21,931 bases of DNA from a virus: positions 1 through 21,931 of IMG/VR virus record IMGVR_UViG_3300034374_011126; one strand, given 5' to 3'. Below the pieces are notes generated by a model. That model did not search any database. It was not told where the DNA came from and saw only the letters and a list, made by a program, of their open reading frames with translations. Every line of letters begins with the position of its first letter. Position 1 is the first letter of the stretch. Made by a program: the position numbers and the translations under genes. Of this stretch, positions 1-21,167 are shown piece after piece.

Positions 1-57
1 GGTGTAGTTACCAGGATAAATCTTGGCAACTTGGAGCTGGTTAGAGTTGATTGCCAT
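1..57 (-). CDS. Start of the gene downstream of the major capsid gene (partial)
   Basis: Only the first 19 codons lie in the window, beginning MAINSNQLQV and running off the left edge. The ATG at 57-55 follows an excellent ribosome binding site (AGGAGG at 67-72, 9 nt upstream) that overlaps the capsid stop codon, so the two genes are translated from one message. Position after the capsid gene suggests a head-completion or tail protein, but 19 residues are too few to name it. Confidence 0.7.
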   Translation of the reverse strand, partial: MAINSNQLQVAKIYPGNYT

Positions 58-66
58 CGTTAGTTA

Positions 67-72
67 CCTCCT
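67..72 (-). promoter_or_regulatory. Strong Shine-Dalgarno of the gene after capsid
   Basis: On the minus strand AGGAGG sits 9 nt before the ATG at 57 and overlaps the TGA of the capsid gene. It is the best ribosome binding site in the window, where most starts have weak or no SD, which suggests high expression of this late gene. Confidence 0.75.
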
Positions 73-1187
73 CAAGCGTTAAAGGAGTAAGCCACGGTGG
101 CGAAGTCAGCGTTCAGAAGTTCGAAACCTGCGTACAGGCTCCAAATCATCATGATAAAACGGCTGAAATCGTCATTGTTGTTCAACAGCACCTGAGCGTT
201 GTTGCCGCCGATACCGACGCCCACGCTCTGAGGACCGAAGAACATACCAATTGCGCTCTCATAAGTAGCGGCGGTACCACCGATGGTGGCACTCTGGCTC
301 TGAGAAGGCATGTTGGTCGATTCGAAGAAGCGAACGCCTTCGAACACGAAACCGGTGGGCATAATCGGCTCACCAGCCACGAAAGTGGCTTGCCCAAAAC
401 CCTGACCCATGTACAGCGCAGCGTTGGGCTGCATTGCCGACATGAGGGGGTTGATCTGACCGTTGCCAGGGTAACGAGCCACTTCACGGAAGTCGCTGTT
501 CTGACGCAGGTGCATCAGGAAGGTAGGATCGCAAACACAGCGATAGAAACCGTCCTGGTAGGTAGGAACGTTCCGCTTACGCATGGATTTCACCACGCGG
601 AGCAGGTCGTCCTTAACGTCGAACTTAGCTTGTTCGGCGTTGCTGTAGGTCAGGGAACCAACAGCGAGGTCGCCAGGGTAGTAGTAACCACCTTGGGTGT
701 CAGAAGACTGACCTTTAGAAACTGCTTTCAGGAGTTCATTGATGAACACCCGGTCACGCCAACGACGATAGTCGTCGAGCATGGTCAGCGAACCGATCGA
801 CTGGTGGAAAGCGGTAAGGTTACCGGTATCCAGCAGCAGACGCTGAGCGGTGATCAGGGTCTCGCGAGCAACCTTAAAGGTGCTGGGCTGAGTGGGATCA
901 CTCGGGTCAGCAGGACCGGTGTACTCGCGAAGAGTCACGAGCACTTTGTCCTTCACAACGTTGCGGCTGTTAGCAGTACCAATGGTCTGCTCAGCAGTAC
1001 GCTCGCGTGACTCTTTGCTTCCCGGATTGCCCCAGAACCTGTAGCGGTCTAACTGCACAGTCTGGCCTGGCTGCTTGCTGAAGTCATGAACGACCACAGG
1101 CTCTGCTGCCATCTCTACAACGTACGCAGGATGCGGACGGTAAAGTTCGGCGCCGAGAAGCTTCGGGAAATCATTATCGACAAACAC
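72..1187 (-). CDS. Major capsid protein (HK97 fold, N4 gp56-like)
   Basis: This 371-aa protein probably forms the icosahedral shell. The pattern resembles the N4 gp56 family of major capsid proteins. The N-terminal part has a basic RFWGNPGSKESRERTAEQ stretch (about 50-67) leading into a Thr/Val-rich strand region. The C-terminal half has CDPTFLMHLRQN (219-230), the FREVARYPG segment (233-241) and GVRFFESTNMP (284-294), typical of the P-domain and beta strands in that family. The length is normal. The start is GTG at 1187 with a GGAG box about 9 nt upstream; ATG at codon 26 is the only early alternative and would remove part of the N-arm. It lies downstream of portal and scaffold, as expected. 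The family call rests on pattern recognition, not on a search. Confidence 0.85.
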   Translation of the reverse strand: MFVDNDFPKLLGAELYRPHPAYVVEMAAEPVVVHDFSKQPGQTVQLDRYRFWGNPGSKESRERTAEQTIGTANSRNVVKDKVLVTLREYTGPADPSDPTQPSTFKVARETLITAQRLLLDTGNLTAFHQSIGSLTMLDDYRRWRDRVFINELLKAVSKGQSSDTQGGYYYPGDLAVGSLTYSNAEQAKFDVKDDLLRVVKSMRKRNVPTYQDGFYRCVCDPTFLMHLRQNSDFREVARYPGNGQINPLMSAMQPNAALYMGQGFGQATFVAGEPIMPTGFVFEGVRFFESTNMPSQSQSATIGGTAATYESAIGMFFGPQSVGVGIGGNNAQVLLNNNDDFSRFIMMIWSLYAGFELLNADFATVAYSFNA

Positions 1188-2436: not shown

Positions 2437-2462
2437 AAAAAACCCCGCCGTTTCCGGCGAGG
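2437..2462 (-). terminator. Rho-independent terminator after the scaffold gene
   Basis: On the minus strand an 8-bp GC-rich stem (CCTCGCCG with CGGCGGGG, one G-U pair) with a GAAA tetraloop is followed directly by six T. It lies 26 nt past the scaffold stop. It is the clearest terminator in the window and separates the portal-scaffold message from the small-gene-capsid message. Confidence 0.9.
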
Positions 2463-2487
2463 TCGTCCCCATCCTTATGAGTTTAGC

Positions 2488-3399
2488 TCAAGCGTTGTCC
2501 AGGAACAACAGCTTGGAGCGGAAAGCTTCGGGGCTCATCTGAGACAGATAGCGCCAAGCGTTCTCAGGGTTTTGGTTCATCACTTGACCAAAGCTCTCCC
2601 ATTGAACATCAGCGTTAGCGGAAGGAGCGCCAGCGGTAGCGGAGGCGGGCACAGCAGGAACTTGATCGTACTGAGGACGATATTCCTGGGTGGGTTGTTG
2701 TTCGTCTACAGGATACACTTCAGTAAAGAAACGGTTGGTGTAATCGGCGAGGTGATCGGGATCGGTCAGGATGGTTTCCATGGCCATGCCCCGGTTAGCC
2801 ACTTCTTCCAGAACTTGATGCTGCTGAATCAGAGCATCTTCCAGCGTGGTGGCGTACTGGTTGAGAATACCAGGAGCCTCGATGCCGAAGTGATTAACGA
2901 CGGCGGTTGTTTCTTGACTTAGGCTTGGCGTTTGCTGCGCCGTAGAAGTCGGATAAGAAGTTTGGGTCGTAGACTCGTTGCTGTACGAGGTCGGCTGAGC
3001 CGTAGGGGCTTGGTAAGCCCACGGTTGGACCTGTGAAAGCTGACTGAGTTGTTGAATATCCGCCGCCGTCAGTTGGGGTTGTGCTGACGATGCTGTCTGG
3101 CTGGGGGACGGGGAGAGCCGGGACACTATACGGTCCAGGCTGCCCAGCGCTGCTTCCCACGGATTCGACGGGGAGGAGGCTGACGGATACTGGTTGGACT
3201 GGTTGTTGGTAGAAGGGGCCGTAGCCTGTTGTGCCTGCGACGGCACTTGGGGCATAACTGCCGAAGGTACCGCCTGGGTACTGGCTACCCATTGCGGGTA
3301 AGCGGTTGAGCCCTGGTCCACCGCCGGGGCCGCCGCCTGAGGGGCTGCTACCGCCGGGGATACCGGGCTCGGGATCGAAGCTGGGATCTGCTGGCTCAT
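2488..3399 (-). CDS. Probable scaffold / capsid assembly protein, N-terminus overlapping the portal gene
   Basis: A 303-aa protein. Residues 1-168 are Pro/Gln/Ser/Ala-rich and low in complexity, with one helix-like patch (NPWEAALGSLDRIVSRLS at about 79-96). Residues 170-303 are helical and acidic, with EDALIQQHQVLEEVANRG and a C-terminal YLSQMSPEAFRSKLLFLDNA. Position between portal and capsid, acidic helical character and lack of a catalytic motif suggest an internal scaffold; this is inference. The first 506 nt are also read as the portal tail in another frame. The ATG at 3399 has only a weak GGG upstream; ATG at codon 49 (3255) is an alternative but would still leave about 360 nt of overlap. 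Confidence 0.75.
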   Translation of the reverse strand: MSQQIPASIPSPVSPAVAAPQAAAPAVDQGSTAYPQWVASTQAVPSAVMPQVPSQAQQATAPSTNNQSNQYPSASSPSNPWEAALGSLDRIVSRLSPSPSQTASSAQPQLTAADIQQLSQLSQVQPWAYQAPTAQPTSYSNESTTQTSYPTSTAQQTPSLSQETTAVVNHFGIEAPGILNQYATTLEDALIQQHQVLEEVANRGMAMETILTDPDHLADYTNRFFTEVYPVDEQQPTQEYRPQYDQVPAVPASATAGAPSANADVQWESFGQVMNQNPENAWRYLSQMSPEAFRSKLLFLDNA

Positions 3400-5131
3400 A
3401 GCTGCCCGAGTAAGTCAGTTCTTGCGCGAGATGGTCAAACGTCCTATAAAGTAAGGGCGTTAAGTTTAGCCGTGGATCAGCCGCTAAGGGCTGATTAGGA
3501 GCTAAAGGATGCGGGGCTTGTAGCATCTGGTTCAATAGTAGCAAGAATTGCTGCATTGCGCCCTGCGTTTGTTGAATCATTCGGAAAGGGAAGCCCTTCA
3601 ACATCTCCGAACGTTCTAAATCGGTCTTATCGGGGAACAAATACTTCAGAGCTTCAACGCTATCAACGCCGAGCTCTTGTAAGTTACGAACCACGATTGA
3701 CTTTTGGTTGATGTCGTAAGCAGTGTCCTCATAAACATCCCCTTGGAATCGGTATGTTATTTCCCGATCTCCATCCGGAGGTAGGCCGAAAACACCGCGT
3801 GGGACCTTGTTATCAGCTAAAGCAGCTTGAATAGCAAGGTCGACATTTTCTTCGTATTTAGCGAATTTGTTCTGGTACTTAACGAGGGCTTCTTCGGTTT
3901 GTTCTTTGGGTTCTTTAGGTGGGGTTAAACCCACAACGGAGATAAAACTTTCGCGGAAAATCTGCTCCTGATGATAAATAATCATCTCTAACAGACGGCA
4001 GAAACCGTATGTCAGAAAACTCTTATTTTTACGAAGAGCAGTTGCTTGAGCACGGCCCATGAGACCTTTAATCTCAGTAGCAGTGGCTCCGGCGCTGATT
4101 GATATTTCGTCAACGCCGCCCAAGGCAGTTCTGATTTCCTCGCGGAGTAGAAGAGCATACCGATTCATATCCCCGTTAACGGGGTCGGGGGTCATGTAGC
4201 CCACGCGGTCGGAGGGCTCCACGTTCGCAATAATTCGCGGAACGCGCAGACCACCAAGGCTGGACTGCGAGCCGAAAGGCTCAGATACACGAGTGGAGGG
4301 GGAATCAATCCCAGCAAAACCACTTTGACTGCTAATCGTCGGACGGAACGAACGATCTGCATCCGAAGCTTCGACCAGATCGCTACGGGGACGAGAGCTG
4401 ATGAGCGTGGGATTCCCAAAGAACTCGATGTTCTTCGAGATGTTCTGCATCATCTGATCATGCAGAACAATTTGCTGCATAAAAGGCTCAAACTCACCCT
4501 CGCCCTCAGTTCCGCTGGCATTCGGTTTGTTGAGGACTTCAACAGCTGGAATAAAACCGAGTGTGTTATCTCGGCTATTTTTAGGTGTGATTAAAGAGCC
4601 CGGTTCGAGGTCAAAACTCAGCTCACTATTAGCTTCATACTCTGTAATCTTTTCGCTGGTAATCGAGATTCGTACATAACGTTTATTCTGGCCTTGAGTT
4701 TCCGCAGGCAGACCAATAGCACTGTTACGAATCTTATAACTATAGATAATGACGACTTCTTCGATTTCGCCGTTTACGTCGTGGTAAACGCGGTACTGGT
4801 TTTTGTTGAAAAAGTAAATTTGGTACTTAAGTTTTGGGTCAGGGCGAAAGTAAAAAAGCCCACAGCCGTCGATTAAAAAGTTACGGATAATCGCTGGAAA
4901 ACGAATATCTAGTTTATTTAGTTGAATTAAATCGCTTAAAAATTTTGTACGTGCTTTATAAGTATCTTGCTCACAATAGAAAAACAGTCCTTTTTTAATC
5001 ATAAGCAGCGTCATTTGCTGCAGATGACTAAGGACAACCATAGTCGCAGATTGTTTGCTGCGGTCCTGTGTTCTAGAAGCCTCTAGAATTTCATTAAACC
5101 GCTGCCGTACGCTCAGGTTGTCCGCAGACAT
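2894..5131 (-). CDS. Portal protein (SPP1 gp6-like) with long Pro/Gly-rich tail
   Basis: A 745-aa protein expected to form the dodecameric DNA gate at the capsid vertex. The body (about 1-575) is mixed helix and strand. It contains an N-terminal helix rich in Gln and Met, a central strand region, and a helical stem region with REEIRTALGGVDEISISAGATATEIKG, typical of SPP1 gp6-like portals. A Gly/Pro/Ser-rich tail follows from about residue 578, ending in a basic AKPKSRNNRRR. The tail is unusual and is dual-coded with the scaffold-like gene. An AAGGG box lies about 9 nt before the ATG at 5131. It follows the small basic gene at 5150-5320 and precedes the scaffold. Confidence 0.87.
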   Translation of the reverse strand: MSADNLSVRQRFNEILEASRTQDRSKQSATMVVLSHLQQMTLLMIKKGLFFYCEQDTYKARTKFLSDLIQLNKLDIRFPAIIRNFLIDGCGLFYFRPDPKLKYQIYFFNKNQYRVYHDVNGEIEEVVIIYSYKIRNSAIGLPAETQGQNKRYVRISITSEKITEYEANSELSFDLEPGSLITPKNSRDNTLGFIPAVEVLNKPNASGTEGEGEFEPFMQQIVLHDQMMQNISKNIEFFGNPTLISSRPRSDLVEASDADRSFRPTISSQSGFAGIDSPSTRVSEPFGSQSSLGGLRVPRIIANVEPSDRVGYMTPDPVNGDMNRYALLLREEIRTALGGVDEISISAGATATEIKGLMGRAQATALRKNKSFLTYGFCRLLEMIIYHQEQIFRESFISVVGLTPPKEPKEQTEEALVKYQNKFAKYEENVDLAIQAALADNKVPRGVFGLPPDGDREITYRFQGDVYEDTAYDINQKSIVVRNLQELGVDSVEALKYLFPDKTDLERSEMLKGFPFRMIQQTQGAMQQFLLLLNQMLQAPHPLAPNQPLAADPRLNLTPLLYRTFDHLAQELTYSGSYEPADPSFDPEPGIPGGSSPSGGGPGGGPGLNRLPAMGSQYPGGTFGSYAPSAVAGTTGYGPFYQQPVQPVSVSLLPVESVGSSAGQPGPYSVPALPVPQPDSIVSTTPTDGGGYSTTQSAFTGPTVGLPSPYGSADLVQQRVYDPNFLSDFYGAANAKPKSRNNRRR

Positions 5132-5149: not shown

Positions 5150-5320
5150 TCAGCGAGCGTTTGCTTCGCGCTCTTTAGTACGCATCATACGAGCTTTCCG
5201 TGATTTACGGACAGCTTCGCGACGATTCTCATTACGGTCAGAACCACCTTCGTTACCGCTGCCATCGCCCTGATTACCGGCGAAAGGCTTTTTGATTTGC
5301 TCAGTCATAAAGTCAGCCAT
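5150..5320 (-). CDS. Small basic protein upstream of portal
   Basis: A 56-aa protein starting MADFMTEQIKKPF, with a Gly/Asn/Ser linker (about 15-32) and a strongly basic C-terminal half rich in Arg and Lys. It could bind nucleic acid or a partner in the head, but no family is recognised. Its ATG overlaps the stop of the glycosyltransferase upstream by 8 nt (ATGGCTGA arrangement), and the same arrangement occurs at 6500-6507. A second ATG four codons in is possible. It ends 18 nt before the portal start. Confidence 0.7.
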   Translation of the reverse strand: MADFMTEQIKKPFAGNQGDGSGNEGGSDRNENRREAVRKSRKARMMRTKEREANAR

Positions 5321-6161
5321 TAGGAAGCAAATAATTTTTGACTCTCTCTATTTTAAACAGTTCATCAGGCAAAAGCTCATGTGGATACGGCTCCAACACA
5401 TGATCTTTGCGACCTAGAGGATCAGTGCCTCCGGCTTCAGCCTTATAGGCGTCAAGATAATCAAGCATATCTTGACTGTAAGCAGGAGCGTGTGCGTTAG
5501 GGATATCGTCGTAACAATGAGAGAACGATGTGAGTTTACGCTTCATGCGGGATGGATCTCCCATCCAAGAAAAATGCCACCCGGCGTCACAGTTGCCTAC
5601 AACAACGTCATTAGGGTTACGGCGTATCTCCGATAAAGTCTGATCCAGATGCTCGTGGAGAACAACGGTACCGCACGTCCAGTTAGTAGGAGGTTTCGAC
5701 ACGTCACGATCTGGATCTACAACACGTAAGTCCGCCCTCCCGTAGAACATAGGCATAGACAGTCGAACACAACGAGAAGGATCTGCTTTAGCAAGATCAA
5801 CAGCTTCTAAAAGTGCTTCGGGTTTAGGGATCTCGTCTACGTCGCTAAAGAAAAACGCAGAATCTGGAGGAGTCATCCTCATACCCACAGCGAGTGCGTC
5901 CCTCTGGGAGTACTCACGGACCCAGGGATTCGGAGCGATATCCGGCGGAGGCAGCTCAACATGAAGCACCTGAATTTTTTCCTCAGGCAATCCAAGTTTT
6001 CTAATTGTCTCTACGCAAGTAAATTCTTTTTTATCGCCTTTAAAAGTACGATCTGCGTCTGTAATGATAAAACCGTCTACAATATCTTTAAGCATATTGA
6101 CGCGGAGCTCTAGGAGCTCCTTTTCGTCAAAATAGAGGAAACAGTCGAATAGCACTGCCAA
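5313..6161 (-). CDS. GT17-like glycosyltransferase
   Basis: A 282-aa protein resembling glycosyltransferase family 17, which includes beta-1,4-mannosyl-glycoprotein N-acetylglucosaminyltransferase. Visible hallmarks are the N-terminal VLFDCFLYFDEKELLELR (3-20), the DGFIITDADRTFKG segment (29-42), a DVDE metal-binding motif (107-110) inside FFFSDVDEIP, and GWHFSWMG (194-201). These cover the usual GT17 core, so the enzyme looks complete. Donor and acceptor cannot be read from the sequence. It sits between small virion-region genes and the portal unit. The start is either TTG at 6161 or GTG at 6155; neither has an SD. A TATACTGTCAG element lies just upstream. Confidence 0.82.
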   Translation of the reverse strand: MAVLFDCFLYFDEKELLELRVNMLKDIVDGFIITDADRTFKGDKKEFTCVETIRKLGLPEEKIQVLHVELPPPDIAPNPWVREYSQRDALAVGMRMTPPDSAFFFSDVDEIPKPEALLEAVDLAKADPSRCVRLSMPMFYGRADLRVVDPDRDVSKPPTNWTCGTVVLHEHLDQTLSEIRRNPNDVVVGNCDAGWHFSWMGDPSRMKRKLTSFSHCYDDIPNAHAPAYSQDMLDYLDAYKAEAGGTDPLGRKDHVLEPYPHELLPDELFKIERVKNYLLPNG

Positions 6162-7777: not shown

Positions 7778-8686
7778 TCAGAACATAGCACACGAAAACA
7801 TCTGTGTACAGTCTATTAAATTATTAGATTTCTTAAGAAGCTCTTTAGTGTATTTTGTATCATCGTGTTTAATTAAACAGCAGTCATGCGGCACGTATCT
7901 ACCGTCTCGCTCTACCACGGGGATCCAACGGCGGTGTTCGTACCCTCGTGGGACGCTCTCGAAAGCTAAACCCATGGAACTACGGTCTGCTAAAGGCCAG
8001 TTACGAACCCCAACAAGCTCATAACTTCTAACGGGGTCCATACTTTGACTCTTAACGTATTTAACAGCATCTTGTTGATCTAAAATCATCGCTCCGTAGT
8101 ATGGATTTGATACCTGAGCGAAAAATTTGATTTCGGGATCAACAACCAACATCAGTTTTACGTTGAAACCGATGTCGTGCCAAACATTCGGTGTTTCCCG
8201 CGTCAGGGAGAACGTGTGGTAGTTATCGAAGGGGATTTTTTTGCCGTCGTGCTCCTCATATCGGACAAAACCAGGCTCAAAACCCGCCTCACTTAACCTG
8301 TTTTTCCATCTAAACCAGTATTTTAAATTTTCGTAGGTCAAAATCATATCGTTCTCCTGATAAACGTAAAAATCTGCTGTGTAGTTCATGCACGCTAAAA
8401 CAAGATCAGTTTTATGCGCCCAAGTAAGCTCCCAACCCGAGTATTCAGGCCCACAAACTTTGATATTGATATCTAATTTAGAAAAATACGGATCTAGAAC
8501 ACTTTTTAGCGTATCTACATCATTTTCTGATTCATAATCCACATAGATGTTTATTTTTACCTCTAAGTCATACTCTAAATAAGCTTTAATTGTGTTAATT
8601 AAGGAATTTATGCGGTTTAAAGGTTTGTGAGCCGTAATGGCGACCCACATTCGCGAACCAGAAAGCGAAGAAGAGTGAGTTTTCAT
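7778..8686 (-). CDS. GT-A-like glycosyltransferase
   Basis: A 302-aa protein. It opens with MWVAITAHKPLNR (13-25), a typical first strand of a GT-A fold. A YVYQENDMILTYENLKYWF segment (107-125) follows, in which END-M replaces the usual DxD; GFVRYEEHDGKK (139-150) and a C-terminal DCCLIKHDD come after. This layout matches phage and bacterial proteins labelled glycosyltransferase that carry a YxENDM motif, but activity and sugar are unknown. Its ATG shares one base with the terminase stop (TGATG), so it is translationally coupled to terminase. A longer start at 8737 would lie inside terminase and is unlikely. Confidence 0.72.
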   Translation of the reverse strand: MKTHSSSLSGSRMWVAITAHKPLNRINSLINTIKAYLEYDLEVKINIYVDYESENDVDTLKSVLDPYFSKLDINIKVCGPEYSGWELTWAHKTDLVLACMNYTADFYVYQENDMILTYENLKYWFRWKNRLSEAGFEPGFVRYEEHDGKKIPFDNYHTFSLTRETPNVWHDIGFNVKLMLVVDPEIKFFAQVSNPYYGAMILDQQDAVKYVKSQSMDPVRSYELVGVRNWPLADRSSMGLAFESVPRGYEHRRWIPVVERDGRYVPHDCCLIKHDDTKYTKELLKKSNNLIDCTQMFSCAMF

Positions 8687-10206
8687 CAGTATTCGATCGA
8701 AAAATTGCCTCGGCGCTGTAAAAAGGTAATCAACCAAGTGTATGCGTCTAGCAAATCGTCATGAGCTGTAGCACCAACGTTAATCAGTTGGTCAAATAAC
8801 GCATCAAACTTACGATACTTATTAAATGTCACTCTTTTATTCTCTAGTAGTCCAAGCGTGCCCCTAAATCTAGCAACTTTATCCCCTCGGAAACCCTTGA
8901 CTTCGTGAATATGCAGATTACTTAAACCACGCTCATTCAACAGAACACGGCGAAGGTCAGCAGCCAGGGACGCTTGGTATGCAACAGACTCAACTACAAG
9001 GGTCACCGTGGAATACGTCGGGAAAAACTGTCCATCCTGCTGAATCAAAATGCCCCACTCCAAAAGCATGTCGCACAGAAGGTCTATTTTCTCAAGGTTC
9101 CCAATAGAACGACACTGGTGAGCATCAATTATGTAGTAGTTATCCTTAAGTCGCCCACCTAGCACAAACGCTGTGTAGTCGCTTGTTTCATTTTTACTGG
9201 CGGAGAGGTCAATTCCCACAGCTAAGGAATCAAACTCAGTAACAACTTCTCCCTTAACAAGTAGATCTGGCGAAACGACCAGATCAGAAGTCATCACTGG
9301 TTGCTGTTGGTACTGGTAAGCAAAAGCAACGGGGTCAAGTTCTTTCTGTCCAAGTAGATAATCCGCACTCCATTGTTCAGGCCAGTAACTAATCGGGTCA
9401 CCTTTATCGTCGTACGTAATAGCTTCTTGTGTCACTTGTTTCCATCCTTTATCCGGAACAAACATCGTTTTATGGATGTCCAACGGATGGAATCGAGTAC
9501 CCAGGCAGATAGACCGGCCGCCCTCAAAAATAATTGGAGCGATAACTGAACTCCAGTTATTATTCATCTCTTCCCGAATCGCCGGGTTTTTAATATCCGC
9601 ACTCGATTTAATAGGGTCATCCACAATCACAATGTGTGCACGTTTTGAAGTAATCGAACCTCTAAGACCCGCAGCACGCAGTGTAAATTCTTCGTCACCC
9701 AGACGCGGAATATCTGCATAGTCAAAATCGATAGACCAACCGATATCCGACTGCATCCCCGAACGCAGTTTTACGCGAGGGAAAACTTTACGGTACTCAG
9801 GGGAGTCGATGATCTGCTTAATAATTCTACTTTTAGGAATTGCCGTAGCAATGTTATAAGAACAATAAATTATTTGAAGTGGTCTTTTAGCTGTCGTGTG
9901 TCTTCCAATTATCCACGCTGTAAACAAGTTCAACACGGTACTTTTCGCGCTACCGCGTGGGGCGAGGATATCTAAATTCTGCCCGGCAATATCTAATAAG
10001 TATTTGTTCGACTCGCCCGTAATTAAATGACGGTGCCACTCCAACATATGACGCGCAGGAGTCTTATCTAGAATAGTACAGAACGTATGAAAGTCATTAG
10101 ACGCACGGCCGTATATTGTGTCTAAGGCACCATCTCGTGACTCAGATGCTTTTTTTGCATTGATCTGAGCACTTCGACGATAAGCAAGCGATTCGCGGCT
10201 AGGCAT
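8686..10206 (-). CDS. terL: Terminase large subunit
   Basis: A 506-aa packaging motor. The N-terminal ATPase has Walker A PRGSAKST (83-90), Walker B HIVIVDD (191-197) and a coupling motif CLGTRFH (234-240). The C-terminal RNase H-like nuclease shows D333 in GIDLS (331-335), E406 in VVES, and the acidic HDDLLDA cluster (482-488). All key residues are present, and length is normal. The ATG at 10206 faces the divergent GT4 gene across a 54-nt gap. No small terminase subunit is recognised in the window. It is the first gene of the leftward late operon running to the portal region. Confidence 0.95.
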   Translation of the reverse strand: MPSRESLAYRRSAQINAKKASESRDGALDTIYGRASNDFHTFCTILDKTPARHMLEWHRHLITGESNKYLLDIAGQNLDILAPRGSAKSTVLNLFTAWIIGRHTTAKRPLQIIYCSYNIATAIPKSRIIKQIIDSPEYRKVFPRVKLRSGMQSDIGWSIDFDYADIPRLGDEEFTLRAAGLRGSITSKRAHIVIVDDPIKSSADIKNPAIREEMNNNWSSVIAPIIFEGGRSICLGTRFHPLDIHKTMFVPDKGWKQVTQEAITYDDKGDPISYWPEQWSADYLLGQKELDPVAFAYQYQQQPVMTSDLVVSPDLLVKGEVVTEFDSLAVGIDLSASKNETSDYTAFVLGGRLKDNYYIIDAHQCRSIGNLEKIDLLCDMLLEWGILIQQDGQFFPTYSTVTLVVESVAYQASLAADLRRVLLNERGLSNLHIHEVKGFRGDKVARFRGTLGLLENKRVTFNKYRKFDALFDQLINVGATAHDDLLDAYTWLITFLQRRGNFSIEY

Positions 10207-10260: not shown

Positions 10261-11433
10261 ATGGCGAAAATTCTTTGGTATGGAGACGCTTGTAGTAACA
10301 CTGGATTTGGTCGAGTAACTCATAGTGTACTAGAGCACTTAGCAAAAGAACATGAAGTCTGTGTGCTCGGTATTAATTACACAGGTGATCCTCATGAGCA
10401 CCCGTACAAAATCTACCCTGCGTGTGTTGGAGGTACACAGGATCGCTTTGGTGTAAATAGAATCCCAGAAATACTCCACAAAGAACGTCCTGATGTCGTT
10501 ATCTGTTTAAACGATATCTGGGTTGTCAATCAATTTTGGGAGCGTTGTCAGTTCCTTAAAGATGACCTGAAATTCAAGTTCATCGCCTACTTCCCCGTGG
10601 ACAGCGAAAGCTATTACCCGGACATGCTTCAAAACATGCCCTTCTGGGATTTAGCGATTACGTTCACTGTTAACTGTGCACACAGAATCCTTTCCCATAA
10701 GATCAATATCCCTCGGCTAGGTGTTCTCCCCCACGGGGTGGACAACGGCAGATTTTATCCAATTTCAAAGGAAGAGGCCCGTCAGGAACTGGGCCTCCCT
10801 TTAGACAAATTTATCGTTTTCAACGGTAACAGGAATCAACCTCGCAAACGTATCGATCTAACGATCCAAGCTTTCGCTGACTTCGCGATCGATAAACCCG
10901 ACACCATGTTGTATTTGCACATGGGAGCAAAAGACCTTGGGTGGGACGTAATGCCTCTGTTCCACAGGGAAATGAACAAACGTGGACTGGATGACAAGCA
11001 CCGATTGATCCTGACATCCCCAAATATGAATTATATGGCTGCACCTCCGGATAGCCTGCTGAACACGATTTACAACGCGTGTGATGTCGGCTTAAATACG
11101 GCAGATGGTGAAGGGTGGGGTCTTGTAAGCTTTGAAAATGCGAGCTGCCGCAAACCTCAAGTTGTCCCCAACCACACCGCATGTAAGGACATTTGGGAAG
11201 GCGCAGCTCAGCTCGCTGATATTGCCACGTGGGTTGTCGATAAAGACCTCGGTGTCGAACGAGGTCTTGTTGATGTCAAACACACCGCTCACCTATTAAC
11301 GGAGCTGTATGAAGACGAATCAATTTACGCCGAAGTCGCGGACGCCTGCTACGCCGTTACTCAACGTCCTGAATACCGCTGGGAATCTGTCGCTATGGGA
11401 TTCTCTAAAGCTGTCTCTGATCTTTCTGTTTGA
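10261..11433 (+). CDS. GT4-family glycosyltransferase
   Basis: A 390-aa GT-B fold enzyme that would transfer an activated sugar with retention. The N-terminal domain has the Gly-rich acceptor-side loop ACSNTGFGRVT (10-20). The C-terminal donor domain has PHGVD (157-161), NRNQPRKRID (190-199) as the phosphate-contacting basic motif, and EGWGLVSFENA (284-294) as the E-x7-E motif. It is full length. It stands alone on the plus strand with the next gene 3 nt downstream, so the pair is an operon. The acceptor is unknown. No SD precedes the ATG. Confidence 0.9.
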   Translation: MAKILWYGDACSNTGFGRVTHSVLEHLAKEHEVCVLGINYTGDPHEHPYKIYPACVGGTQDRFGVNRIPEILHKERPDVVICLNDIWVVNQFWERCQFLKDDLKFKFIAYFPVDSESYYPDMLQNMPFWDLAITFTVNCAHRILSHKINIPRLGVLPHGVDNGRFYPISKEEARQELGLPLDKFIVFNGNRNQPRKRIDLTIQAFADFAIDKPDTMLYLHMGAKDLGWDVMPLFHREMNKRGLDDKHRLILTSPNMNYMAAPPDSLLNTIYNACDVGLNTADGEGWGLVSFENASCRKPQVVPNHTACKDIWEGAAQLADIATWVVDKDLGVERGLVDVKHTAHLLTELYEDESIYAEVADACYAVTQRPEYRWESVAMGFSKAVSDLSV

Positions 11434-16478: not shown

Positions 16479-17246
16479 TTAGAACCCCAAGTTTTTACGA
16501 CGAACAAAGTCCAAATTGTACGTAGTCAGACTCACAGGCAAAGCCTCATTATTAAAAGGATGAGGGTAGACCTCCCCTTCAATGTGTGCTTGCCAAGCGG
16601 GACTCCATTTAGCGTGCAGATAATGTTTGTTCATTTCGTGCGCAATATGGATCTTTTCAGCTAAAGCTGGTTCACTCCGCCAAGTTTGAGAGCCGTCTGC
16701 ATAGTCCCCACAGGTCTCCCCGTGGAAATAAGGCACGCCTACAGACATATGACGCTTTAATTCAGTGTGCTTAAAACGCATCCCATAGTCCATATCCTCA
16801 CAGTACGCAGGGTACAAATTCTCGTCGAAAATTCCGTACTGCTGCACAACCCAATCCTTCAAAAGAAAGATATCCCAACTACCGTTTTCCCCGTGAACAA
16901 TCCCAGTTTCGGGATCCTCAGCATGGGACACCATAGTTTTTAAAAACCCTGGCGTGTACATAAGATCATGGTTTGTAATTATCCAGTAAGGTGCATTCAT
17001 AAAGCACTTTATAATTAAATTCCAAGCTCCTGAGCACCCAATATTAGCAGGCATATGACATACAACTACCTTGTTTACGTACTTATGTGGGAGTTTAGTA
17101 AGTAAATCTAGTTCTTCTGTTATCTGGTCACGACCATTATTGTTAAATACAACAAAAGTGTCTACAGGGTAATCTATGCTGTAAAACAGTCTGTAGACCC
17201 AATGAGGTGCGTTTACGACAGCTGTGCCTAAAACAGGTATCGTCAT
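16479..17246 (-). CDS. GT2-like glycosyltransferase
   Basis: A 255-aa GT-A-type protein. It has TIPVLGTAVVNAP at the start, ANIGCSGAWNLIIK (67-80) in the nucleotide-binding half, NHD (92-94) in place of the DxD metal motif, and CEDMDYGMRFKH (149-160) as the ED catalytic-base region seen in rhamnosyl- and other GT2 enzymes. It is complete at the C-terminus. The ATG at 17246 is preferred to a TTG at 17252. Its start faces the divergent FkbM methyltransferase 43 nt away. Confidence 0.83.
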   Translation of the reverse strand: MTIPVLGTAVVNAPHWVYRLFYSIDYPVDTFVVFNNNGRDQITEELDLLTKLPHKYVNKVVVCHMPANIGCSGAWNLIIKCFMNAPYWIITNHDLMYTPGFLKTMVSHAEDPETGIVHGENGSWDIFLLKDWVVQQYGIFDENLYPAYCEDMDYGMRFKHTELKRHMSVGVPYFHGETCGDYADGSQTWRSEPALAEKIHIAHEMNKHYLHAKWSPAWQAHIEGEVYPHPFNNEALPVSLTTYNLDFVRRKNLGF

Positions 17247-17289
17247 AACCAAATTTAACTGGTATTATGTTAGCACTGACGAAAGACTG
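17247..17289. promoter_or_regulatory. Divergent promoter region, GT2 / FkbM genes
   Basis: This gap contains, on the plus strand, TGGTATTAT, an extended -10 type box, followed by TTAGCACTGAC and the ATG at 17290. TAGCACTGA also lies before the plus-strand methyltransferase at 19672. No -35 is needed for an extended -10, and none is clear. The leftward signal is not obvious. Confidence 0.4.
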
Positions 17290-19671: not shown

Positions 19672-20289
19672 ATGCCCGTCGATCTCGCTGAGAAATATGA
19701 GATTACACACGACTGGTACAAAAATCTTACCCGCAGTTACGACGCACTCCAATCCGAGCCACGAGCGCAAAAACTGCAATTCAAACCTGATTCTAAGCGA
19801 CTTATCCTCGAAGTCGGCATTTATGAGGGTGCCTCAACAGTTTGGTGGTCCGACAACCTCCTCAACCACCCCGAAAGCCGCATGATCACAATTGATCCGT
19901 TTACAGGATCAGACGAACATATTGCCAGCCCATCCCAGTATCCAACTCTAAACCGCATCGAATACATCGCCCGCACCAACATCGCTAAAAGCAAGAACCC
20001 CGGCAAGATTGATATCCGTAAAGGTTTGAGCTGGAACCTGTTCCCTGACCTCCTAGAGGACCTCGAAAAAGGTCTGGACATCCTATATATCGATGGATCC
20101 CACGAAACCGTGGCGGTCATGCGTGACCTCACCCTGTTTTACCCCTACGTAAAACCCGGTGGCGCCATAATTATCGACGACTACGCCTGGGAAAGCGTCA
20201 AAACGGGCGTCGATGCCTGCGTGGCAAGCTTCATGGACGTCGAAAACGGCTTCTGTTGCTTCAATCAGCTCTGGACCATCAAAAAATGA
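19672..20289 (+). CDS. Class I SAM-dependent methyltransferase (Methyltransf_24-like)
   Basis: A 205-aa protein with the SAM-binding loop LEVGIYEGAST (46-56), an acidic D75 after the second strand (MITIDPFTG), DILYIDGSH (136-144) and PGGAIIIDDY (162-171). The DGSH and DDY pattern is typical of the Methyltransf_24/CmcI-like group, often found with sugar biosynthesis or glycosylation genes. It is complete. The stop shares ATGA with the next gene start, so the two are coupled. The methyl acceptor is unknown. Confidence 0.85.
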   Translation: MPVDLAEKYEITHDWYKNLTRSYDALQSEPRAQKLQFKPDSKRLILEVGIYEGASTVWWSDNLLNHPESRMITIDPFTGSDEHIASPSQYPTLNRIEYIARTNIAKSKNPGKIDIRKGLSWNLFPDLLEDLEKGLDILYIDGSHETVAVMRDLTLFYPYVKPGGAIIIDDYAWESVKTGVDACVASFMDVENGFCCFNQLWTIKK

Positions 20290-21167
20290 CCAGATTTAAC
20301 GTAATTTGCACAGGTTCTGGCATCCATAAGTGGGGCAAATCCTGGATTGAGCACATGCTCAGCCACCTGAACTGCAAATTCCACTATTTAAACCCCTCAG
20401 ACGACATCCCACTCCTAGAAAAGTGCATTGTCGTCACCAACACAACGGAATCGTACTTCTACATCCGTCGTTTACAGCAAGCACACCTTAAATACGGCGT
20501 CATTCTGCTGTCTGATGAGTGCCTCGACTCCTCGTTGGCATTTTTAAATAACCCAGACTGCGTGTTCCTGGCTCGAAACTATGTGCATCCTGGGTGTTAC
20601 AGAAACTTTAAAGTATTCCACTTTGGTCTCGGCTACAAAAACGAGTTCGAAAAGCACGCAAGCCCACGCCGGACCGCATCAAACCGCGAGTTTTTGTGGA
20701 GTTTCACCGGTTCACTGAAGGCAGACCGCCAGCACGCCCTTAAAGTCTTTTCCCAATTCGAACCAAACTTCACTTACCTTGTCGAGAAGTTCGACGATCC
20801 AGAATATTTAACTACACGAAAATACGCCCAAACATTAAACGACAGCATCTTTGTCCTCGCACCAGCCGGTGGCGCCAGTAACGATTCGTTCAGGATTTAC
20901 GAAGCTCTGGAATGCGGAGCAATTCCGGTCGTAATGCGCAACACACCACACCTGCAAATCATGCCGAGTTACTGGCACGGAATTTTCCCAGGGTCAGATT
21001 TGCCGTTCATCATGGCTGACACGTGGGAAGAAGCAGCCGAACAGGTCCGAACCTTAATCGACACTAACCAAGTTGAAGCAGTACGCAGGGAATGTATGGA
21101 TTTCTGGCGTAGCTGGAAAAAATCTTGGAGGCTCGAATTCGAAAAACGAGCCGCCGGTCTCATTTAA
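20286..21167 (+). CDS. Exostosin / GT47-like glycosyltransferase
   Basis: A 293-aa protein with an exostosin-like C-terminal half. FTGSL (140-144) and FVLAPAGGASNDSFRIYEAL (189-208) followed by ECGAIPVV (209-216) match the donor-binding part of GT47/exostosin transferases. The N-terminal half is less clear (CTGSGIHKWGKSW near the start). I prefer the ATG at 20286, overlapping the previous stop as ATGA, to an earlier in-frame start at 20256. Its stop overlaps that of the convergent small gene. Confidence 0.78.
   Translation: MTRFNVICTGSGIHKWGKSWIEHMLSHLNCKFHYLNPSDDIPLLEKCIVVTNTTESYFYIRRLQQAHLKYGVILLSDECLDSSLAFLNNPDCVFLARNYVHPGCYRNFKVFHFGLGYKNEFEKHASPRRTASNREFLWSFTGSLKADRQHALKVFSQFEPNFTYLVEKFDDPEYLTTRKYAQTLNDSIFVLAPAGGASNDSFRIYEALECGAIPVVMRNTPHLQIMPSYWHGIFPGSDLPFIMADTWEEAAEQVRTLIDTNQVEAVRRECMDFWRSWKKSWRLEFEKRAAGLI

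Follow-up and report, generated by a model that had tools for sequence, protein, structure and literature searches.

In phage lambda, the scaffold gene Nu3 is nested within the upstream head gene C, where it is expressed by internal initiation in the same frame, and the two proteins share their sequence. The lysis genes Rz and Rz1 of the same phage form a functional out-of-frame overlap on the same strand, with one gene nested in the other. The locus described here, where the tail of a portal gene and the start of a scaffold-like gene occupy the same DNA, is proposed to have an internal scaffold start like that of C/Nu3; however, its two genes are read in different frames, and two different proteins come from the same DNA. 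Its overlap is out of frame and on the same strand, like that of Rz/Rz1, also from a tailed dsDNA phage, whereas Rz/Rz1 is shorter, nested, and concerned with lysis. In a survey of virus reference genomes, +1 overlaps have a median length of 14 nt (IQR 8-26 nt) (PMC8903798). A preliminary description of this DNA had called an overlap of 500 nt in two essential late genes uncommon. Unlike the surveyed same-strand +1 overlaps, the one considered here reaches approximately 500-690 nt, is kept over deep divergence, and joins two head-assembly genes. Among tailed dsDNA phages, it seems uncommon for head-assembly genes to overlap out of frame over a long distance, and a literature search of incomplete coverage found no description of a portal-scaffold overlap of such a kind.

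S-EIV1-like cyanobacterial phages are a recognised group, present in marine data too (PMC5332604), and Synechococcus phage S-EIV1 (KJ410740) is the only cultured relative found. The window, which is the whole stretch of 21,931 nucleotides that was analysed, is a virus record (21.9 kb) of the S-EIV1 type. Its head-assembly genes all lie on the minus strand, in the order large terminase, small genes, portal, a 303-aa ORF, and major capsid protein (MCP). The portal, the scaffold-like gene, and the MCP are homologous to and collinear with those of S-EIV1, which places the window in the S-EIV1-like lineage. The features of the locus are as follows:

8686-10206, minus strand: large terminase, upstream (phrog_38, E 2e-76)
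2894-5131, minus strand: portal protein gene, 745 aa (matches to PHROG 20475 and phrog_64, portal fold)
3400-5131, minus strand: portal core, codons 1-577, single-coding by codon-position divergence
3422-3601 (up to 3670), minus strand: stretch of reduced synonymous change (O/E 0.56-0.82; similar in the other clades)
3400-3421, minus strand: conserved putative translation-initiation leader within portal codons (by synonymous O/E; no Shine-Dalgarno)
2894-3399, minus strand: dual-coding overlap, portal residues 578-745 and scaffold residues 1-168
2488-3399, minus strand: scaffold-like gene, 303 aa, ATG start, +1 relative to the portal (relatives, invariant M1)
2488-2893, minus strand: C-terminal helical half of the scaffold-like gene, single-coding (divergence and predicted helices)
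2441-2464, minus strand: intrinsic terminator just 3' of the scaffold stop, with a 10-bp stem followed by a T-run
72-1187, minus strand: major capsid protein, downstream (phrog_1357, E 3e-22; 68% identity with an S-EIV1 ORF)

S-EIV1 resembles the window in its portal (47% identical), its gene order, and a +1 overlap of 554 nt at 59287-59840 with an ATG, and differs from it in having an AGGAG Shine-Dalgarno and a start approximately four codons upstream in portal terms. Taken together, the data argue strongly that in S-EIV1-like phages, the window included, the head-assembly module contains a long, ancient overlap, functional in both frames, in which the scaffold would be started by internal initiation.

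The portal ORF (5131..2894) and the 303-aa ORF (3399..2488) have 506 nt in common (2894..3399), and the second frame is +1. The coordinates and lengths given in the preliminary description agree with the ORF list of the window, where the two further features that it had pointed out are also seen, namely a basic portal tail (the C-terminus reads ...KPKSRNNRRR) and a scaffold frame running 406 nt beyond the portal stop. The third same-strand frame holds four to nine stops over the overlap. When the portal protein was fixed and its synonymous codons were reshuffled, the +1 frame was free of stops in approximately 1-10% of trials per genome. When the scaffold protein was fixed instead, the portal frame was open in at most 0.05% of trials with codons drawn from portal usage, and in 0.5-10% with the overlap's own codons shuffled. 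On these sequence counts, an open +1 frame within one genome is mildly unusual and provides modest evidence, the decisive evidence being its conservation across relatives. A single open frame that is not very improbable could be a mere shadow, with only the portal tail being coding in the overlap and the downstream gene starting near or after the portal stop. The GenBank record of S-EIV1 would fit such a reading, as it annotates just 133 aa for the downstream gene, that is, 133 of its 325 codons, and misses the overlap.

Searches of viral contigs returned more than 260 relatives of the scaffold-like protein and more than 400 of the portal, with deeper searches adding relatives on the S-EIV1 side as well as a third clade. 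A scaffold relative is encoded in 264 candidate stretches, the best 80 of which span essentially the full length. The portal-core tree sets apart, with strong support, clade A (the window's), clade B (that of the isolate S-EIV1), and clade C (mostly environmental), and portal identity between clades A and B is only about 44%. Both frames are open and homologous in these divergent relatives: of the 285 fetched loci in which both genes could be read, 284 have a +1 overlap that starts with ATG and extends over 400 nt or more. This count spans the three clades and includes repeat fetches of some contigs, so that 130 non-redundant loci (43 in clade A, 34 in B, and 53 in C) were used for rates. The overlap measures 497-509 nt in clade A, 542-692 nt in clade B, and 509-548 nt in clade C, and its length is always 2 mod 3, which implies that indels preserve both frames. 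Frame-breaking changes in relatives, which had been named beforehand as grounds for rejecting dual coding, are confined to one locus (L310), where a non-triplet indel in the overlap exchanges the portal and scaffold tails; this indel is probably an assembly error. No relative without the overlap was found in scans of viral contigs and one genome scan, which covered up to the best 80 loci apiece and favoured near relatives. Two of the contigs (L235 and L236) are phage contigs of the S-EIV1-like lineage that had been binned in a 'Bacteroidetes' MAG (IN_BCD_1), and in L236 the portal core is divided between two frames.

The comparison of codon-position variability in aligned relatives, which had been proposed together with the overlap, points to constraint in both frames and in all three clades. 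Divergence at codon positions 1/2/3 in clade A is about 0.156/0.077/0.513 in the portal core, 0.209/0.113/0.214 in the portal frame of the overlap, 0.110/0.208/0.211 in the scaffold frame of the overlap, and 0.236/0.164/0.500 in the scaffold frame past the portal stop, and clades B and C follow the same pattern. Across the three clades, the third positions of the portal diverge by 0.51, but by only 0.21-0.26 within the overlap, to which the drop is confined, and those of the scaffold return to 0.50-0.54 past the portal stop. Estimates of dN/dS that account for the other frame, obtained with our own implementation of the site-class idea for overlapping genes, are 0.33 (0.24-0.45), 0.27 (0.21-0.35), and 0.30 (0.21-0.41) for the scaffold frame of clades A, B, and C, respectively, and 0.35, 0.61, and 0.38 for the portal frame, with every upper limit below 1. 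As controls, the +1 frame within the portal core gives 0.61-0.67 and the third frame about 2; the method is biased, since the null for the +1 frame lies at approximately 0.6-0.67 rather than at 1, and it is the contrast that counts and not the absolute value. With a tighter divergence limit, the two overlap frames of clade A yield 0.27 and 0.26, and in clade B the portal tail is less constrained than the scaffold frame. On these substitution patterns, both overlap frames are under purifying selection in every clade.

The third-position suppression, the dN/dS of the scaffold frame, and the conservation of its ATG in three clades leave hardly any probability for a shadow frame. A true shadow at this locus behaves differently: the antisense ORF over the MCP (window 51..1010, plus strand), tried as a candidate gene and rejected, is interrupted by one to nine stops in relatives, and the third positions of the MCP are the most variable there. 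Thus, the claims made from the window alone, that the portal tail and the scaffold-like N-terminus are encoded in two frames of the same strand and that neither frame is a random shadow, are borne out by conservation and codon-position constraint across relatives in three clades. Gene callers can shorten such overlapping genes, as exemplified by the S-EIV1 record. The present comparison amends the gene models of S-EIV1, the sole cultured member, and raises the possibility that databases lack the N-terminal part of the scaffold in this lineage. In the same record, the MCP homologue of S-EIV1 (L154 9317-10468; record 60859-62010) is not annotated as one gene, and an antisense ORF (AHV82227.1) is annotated in its place.

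The preliminary description had also proposed that one of the two proteins probably gained its tail by overprinting. This suggestion has weaker support than the dual coding itself, and the direction is not polarised, as both overlap frames are equally deep among relatives and codon usage ends in a tie (34 of 69 genomes). Portals of other phages, including the PDB chains matched here, are for the most part similar in length to the portal core, which would favour the portal extension, rather than the scaffold N-terminus, as the overprinted part.

Regarding the start of the scaffold-like gene, an alignment of 57 relatives shows no variation at M1. A second candidate start, at 3255, was rejected, the residue there (M49) not being conserved. 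Of the two starts mentioned in the preliminary description, 3399 is therefore favoured over 3255, also because synonymous constraint begins just upstream of 3399. In clade A, synonymous O/E is about 1 in the core, falls to 0.14-0.24 from seven to nine codons before the scaffold ATG (0.14 for portal codons 571-580), and stays low across most of the overlap, which sets the onset approximately 21-27 nt upstream of the ATG. This onset precedes the ATG by approximately nine codons in clade A and six in clade B, and the drop is less sharp in clade C.

The signals ahead of this ATG differ among clades. In clades B and C, the portal codons contain an AGGAG or GAGG element at a distance suited to the scaffold ATG, with anti-Shine-Dalgarno energies of -9.8 and -7.0 kcal/mol, respectively, compared with about -2.6 kcal/mol in clade A, where no Shine-Dalgarno is present at the scaffold start. 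A Lys-Glu codon pair is written in the form that lacks the element, AAA-GAA, in only 1 of 72 cases at the Shine-Dalgarno site against 20 of 35 elsewhere in the portal (Fisher p 2e-11, an optimistic value since the cases are related). In clade A, approximately 21 nt ahead of the ATG are nearly invariant. RNA folding around the start is no better than that of shuffles in this clade (z -0.16, 1.26, 0.38, and -0.92), and one clade C sequence gives a weak signal (z -2.6). Most sequences have a stop in the scaffold frame 6-18 nt before the ATG; in the window, it is the TGA at 3417..3415 on the minus strand. The scaffold ATG is shifted by approximately four portal codons between clades (window 3400-3421 versus L154 7720-7744), being further downstream in clade A, and the shift was accompanied by loss or gain of the Shine-Dalgarno.

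These features also bear on a programmed +1 (or -2) frameshift, which would produce a fusion of portal and scaffold, alone or alongside free scaffold. As neither frame is interrupted and the scaffold is in +1, a shift at any point inside the overlap would yield a fusion, and parts of the overlap hardly vary. However, the second frame opens with an invariant ATG of its own, preceded by a Shine-Dalgarno in clades B and C and, in most sequences, by the scaffold-frame stop; the near-invariant stretches are explicable by residues conserved in both proteins, such as NPWEAA; and codon columns inspected by eye near the start established no slippery site. A frameshift is thus improbable, and the frameshift product that had been raised as a possibility is not needed to explain a second frame with an ATG of its own and a Shine-Dalgarno in two clades.

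Both sequence and fold indicate that the 745-aa protein is a portal. It matches PHROG 20475 (head and packaging) with an E of 7e-162 and, weakly, the portal family phrog_64 (E 1e-8), and its AlphaFold model, of moderate confidence, retrieves solved portals with Foldseek (best E 3.6e-9; 53 matches at E<=0.001). Its overlap tail (578-745) is predicted to be disordered and is rich in Gly/Pro/Ser; it ends in basic residues and contains the conserved motif GSADL, features that S-EIV1 has as well.

The downstream protein is acidic (charge about -17). Its residues 1-168, in the overlap, are predicted to be disordered and rich in Ser/Ala/Gln/Pro, and its C-terminal half is modelled with a long helix (175-212) and three helices (263-302) at a pLDDT of about 50-80. 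This combination, in a gene placed between the portal and the MCP, is of the scaffold type, and the protein is most likely a capsid scaffold, judging from position, acidity, disorder, and helices. It has no detected homologue outside the S-EIV1-like lineage, and no homologue of a known scaffold was found in PHROGs, PDB, or BFVD, although scaffolds diverge fast and the query model was poor (pLDDT 47). This lack of homology to any named scaffold would fit a protein of another kind encoded by a real dual-coding overlap, such as an internal head protein, an ejection protein, or a head-tail factor. Such an identity is unlikely given the order portal, gene, MCP in both the window and S-EIV1, the acidic composition with a disordered N-terminus and a helical C-terminus, which fit scaffolds, and the failure to see any other candidate between the portal and the MCP, where the remaining small ORFs were viewed cursorily.

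With a capsid scaffold as the preferred identity, the following mechanism may be proposed. The portal and the scaffold would be translated from one late mRNA ending at the terminator after the scaffold gene, and scaffold synthesis would begin independently, at the ATG that lies within the portal cistron. To find it, ribosomes would rely in clades B and C on a Shine-Dalgarno carried by the portal codons, and in the window's clade on a conserved leader without such an element. Internal initiation would uncouple the output of scaffold (many copies) from that of portal (few copies). The overlap would be tolerated because in both proteins it affects a disordered tail and leaves out the folded core of the portal and the helical C-terminal part of the scaffold. 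Sequences downstream of the scaffold contain a terminator-like hairpin in 49 of 51 cases in clade A, 34 of 56 in clade C, and only 1 of 44 in clade B; since it directly follows the scaffold in clades A and C, the portal and scaffold genes are probably transcribed together up to this point. No match to a sigma-70 promoter was found on the coding strand near the scaffold start.

With its great age, its wide distribution in environmental data, and its strong support, this overlap offers a good test case for why phages with large genomes keep overlaps, for which expression ratio, co-evolution of the partners, and historical lock-in are candidate reasons. A more speculative idea, to which we give little weight, is that the two disordered tails encoded together, of a portal with a basic tail and an acidic scaffold, bind each other, with the portal nucleating scaffold assembly and the shared DNA locking their co-evolution; if so, the overlap would represent functional coupling beyond compression.

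Upstream of the overlap, synonymous change is mildly reduced (O/E about 0.5-0.8) over 60-90 portal codons in all three clades, a plateau that could possibly reflect an internal promoter, an RNA element, or slower local divergence. Elsewhere in the window, there is a glycosyltransferase gene at 10261-11433 (phrog_2170), and candidate glycosyltransferase-like ORFs on both strands, picked out by eye, possibly at 5313-6161, 7778-8737, 16479-17252, and 20256-21167.
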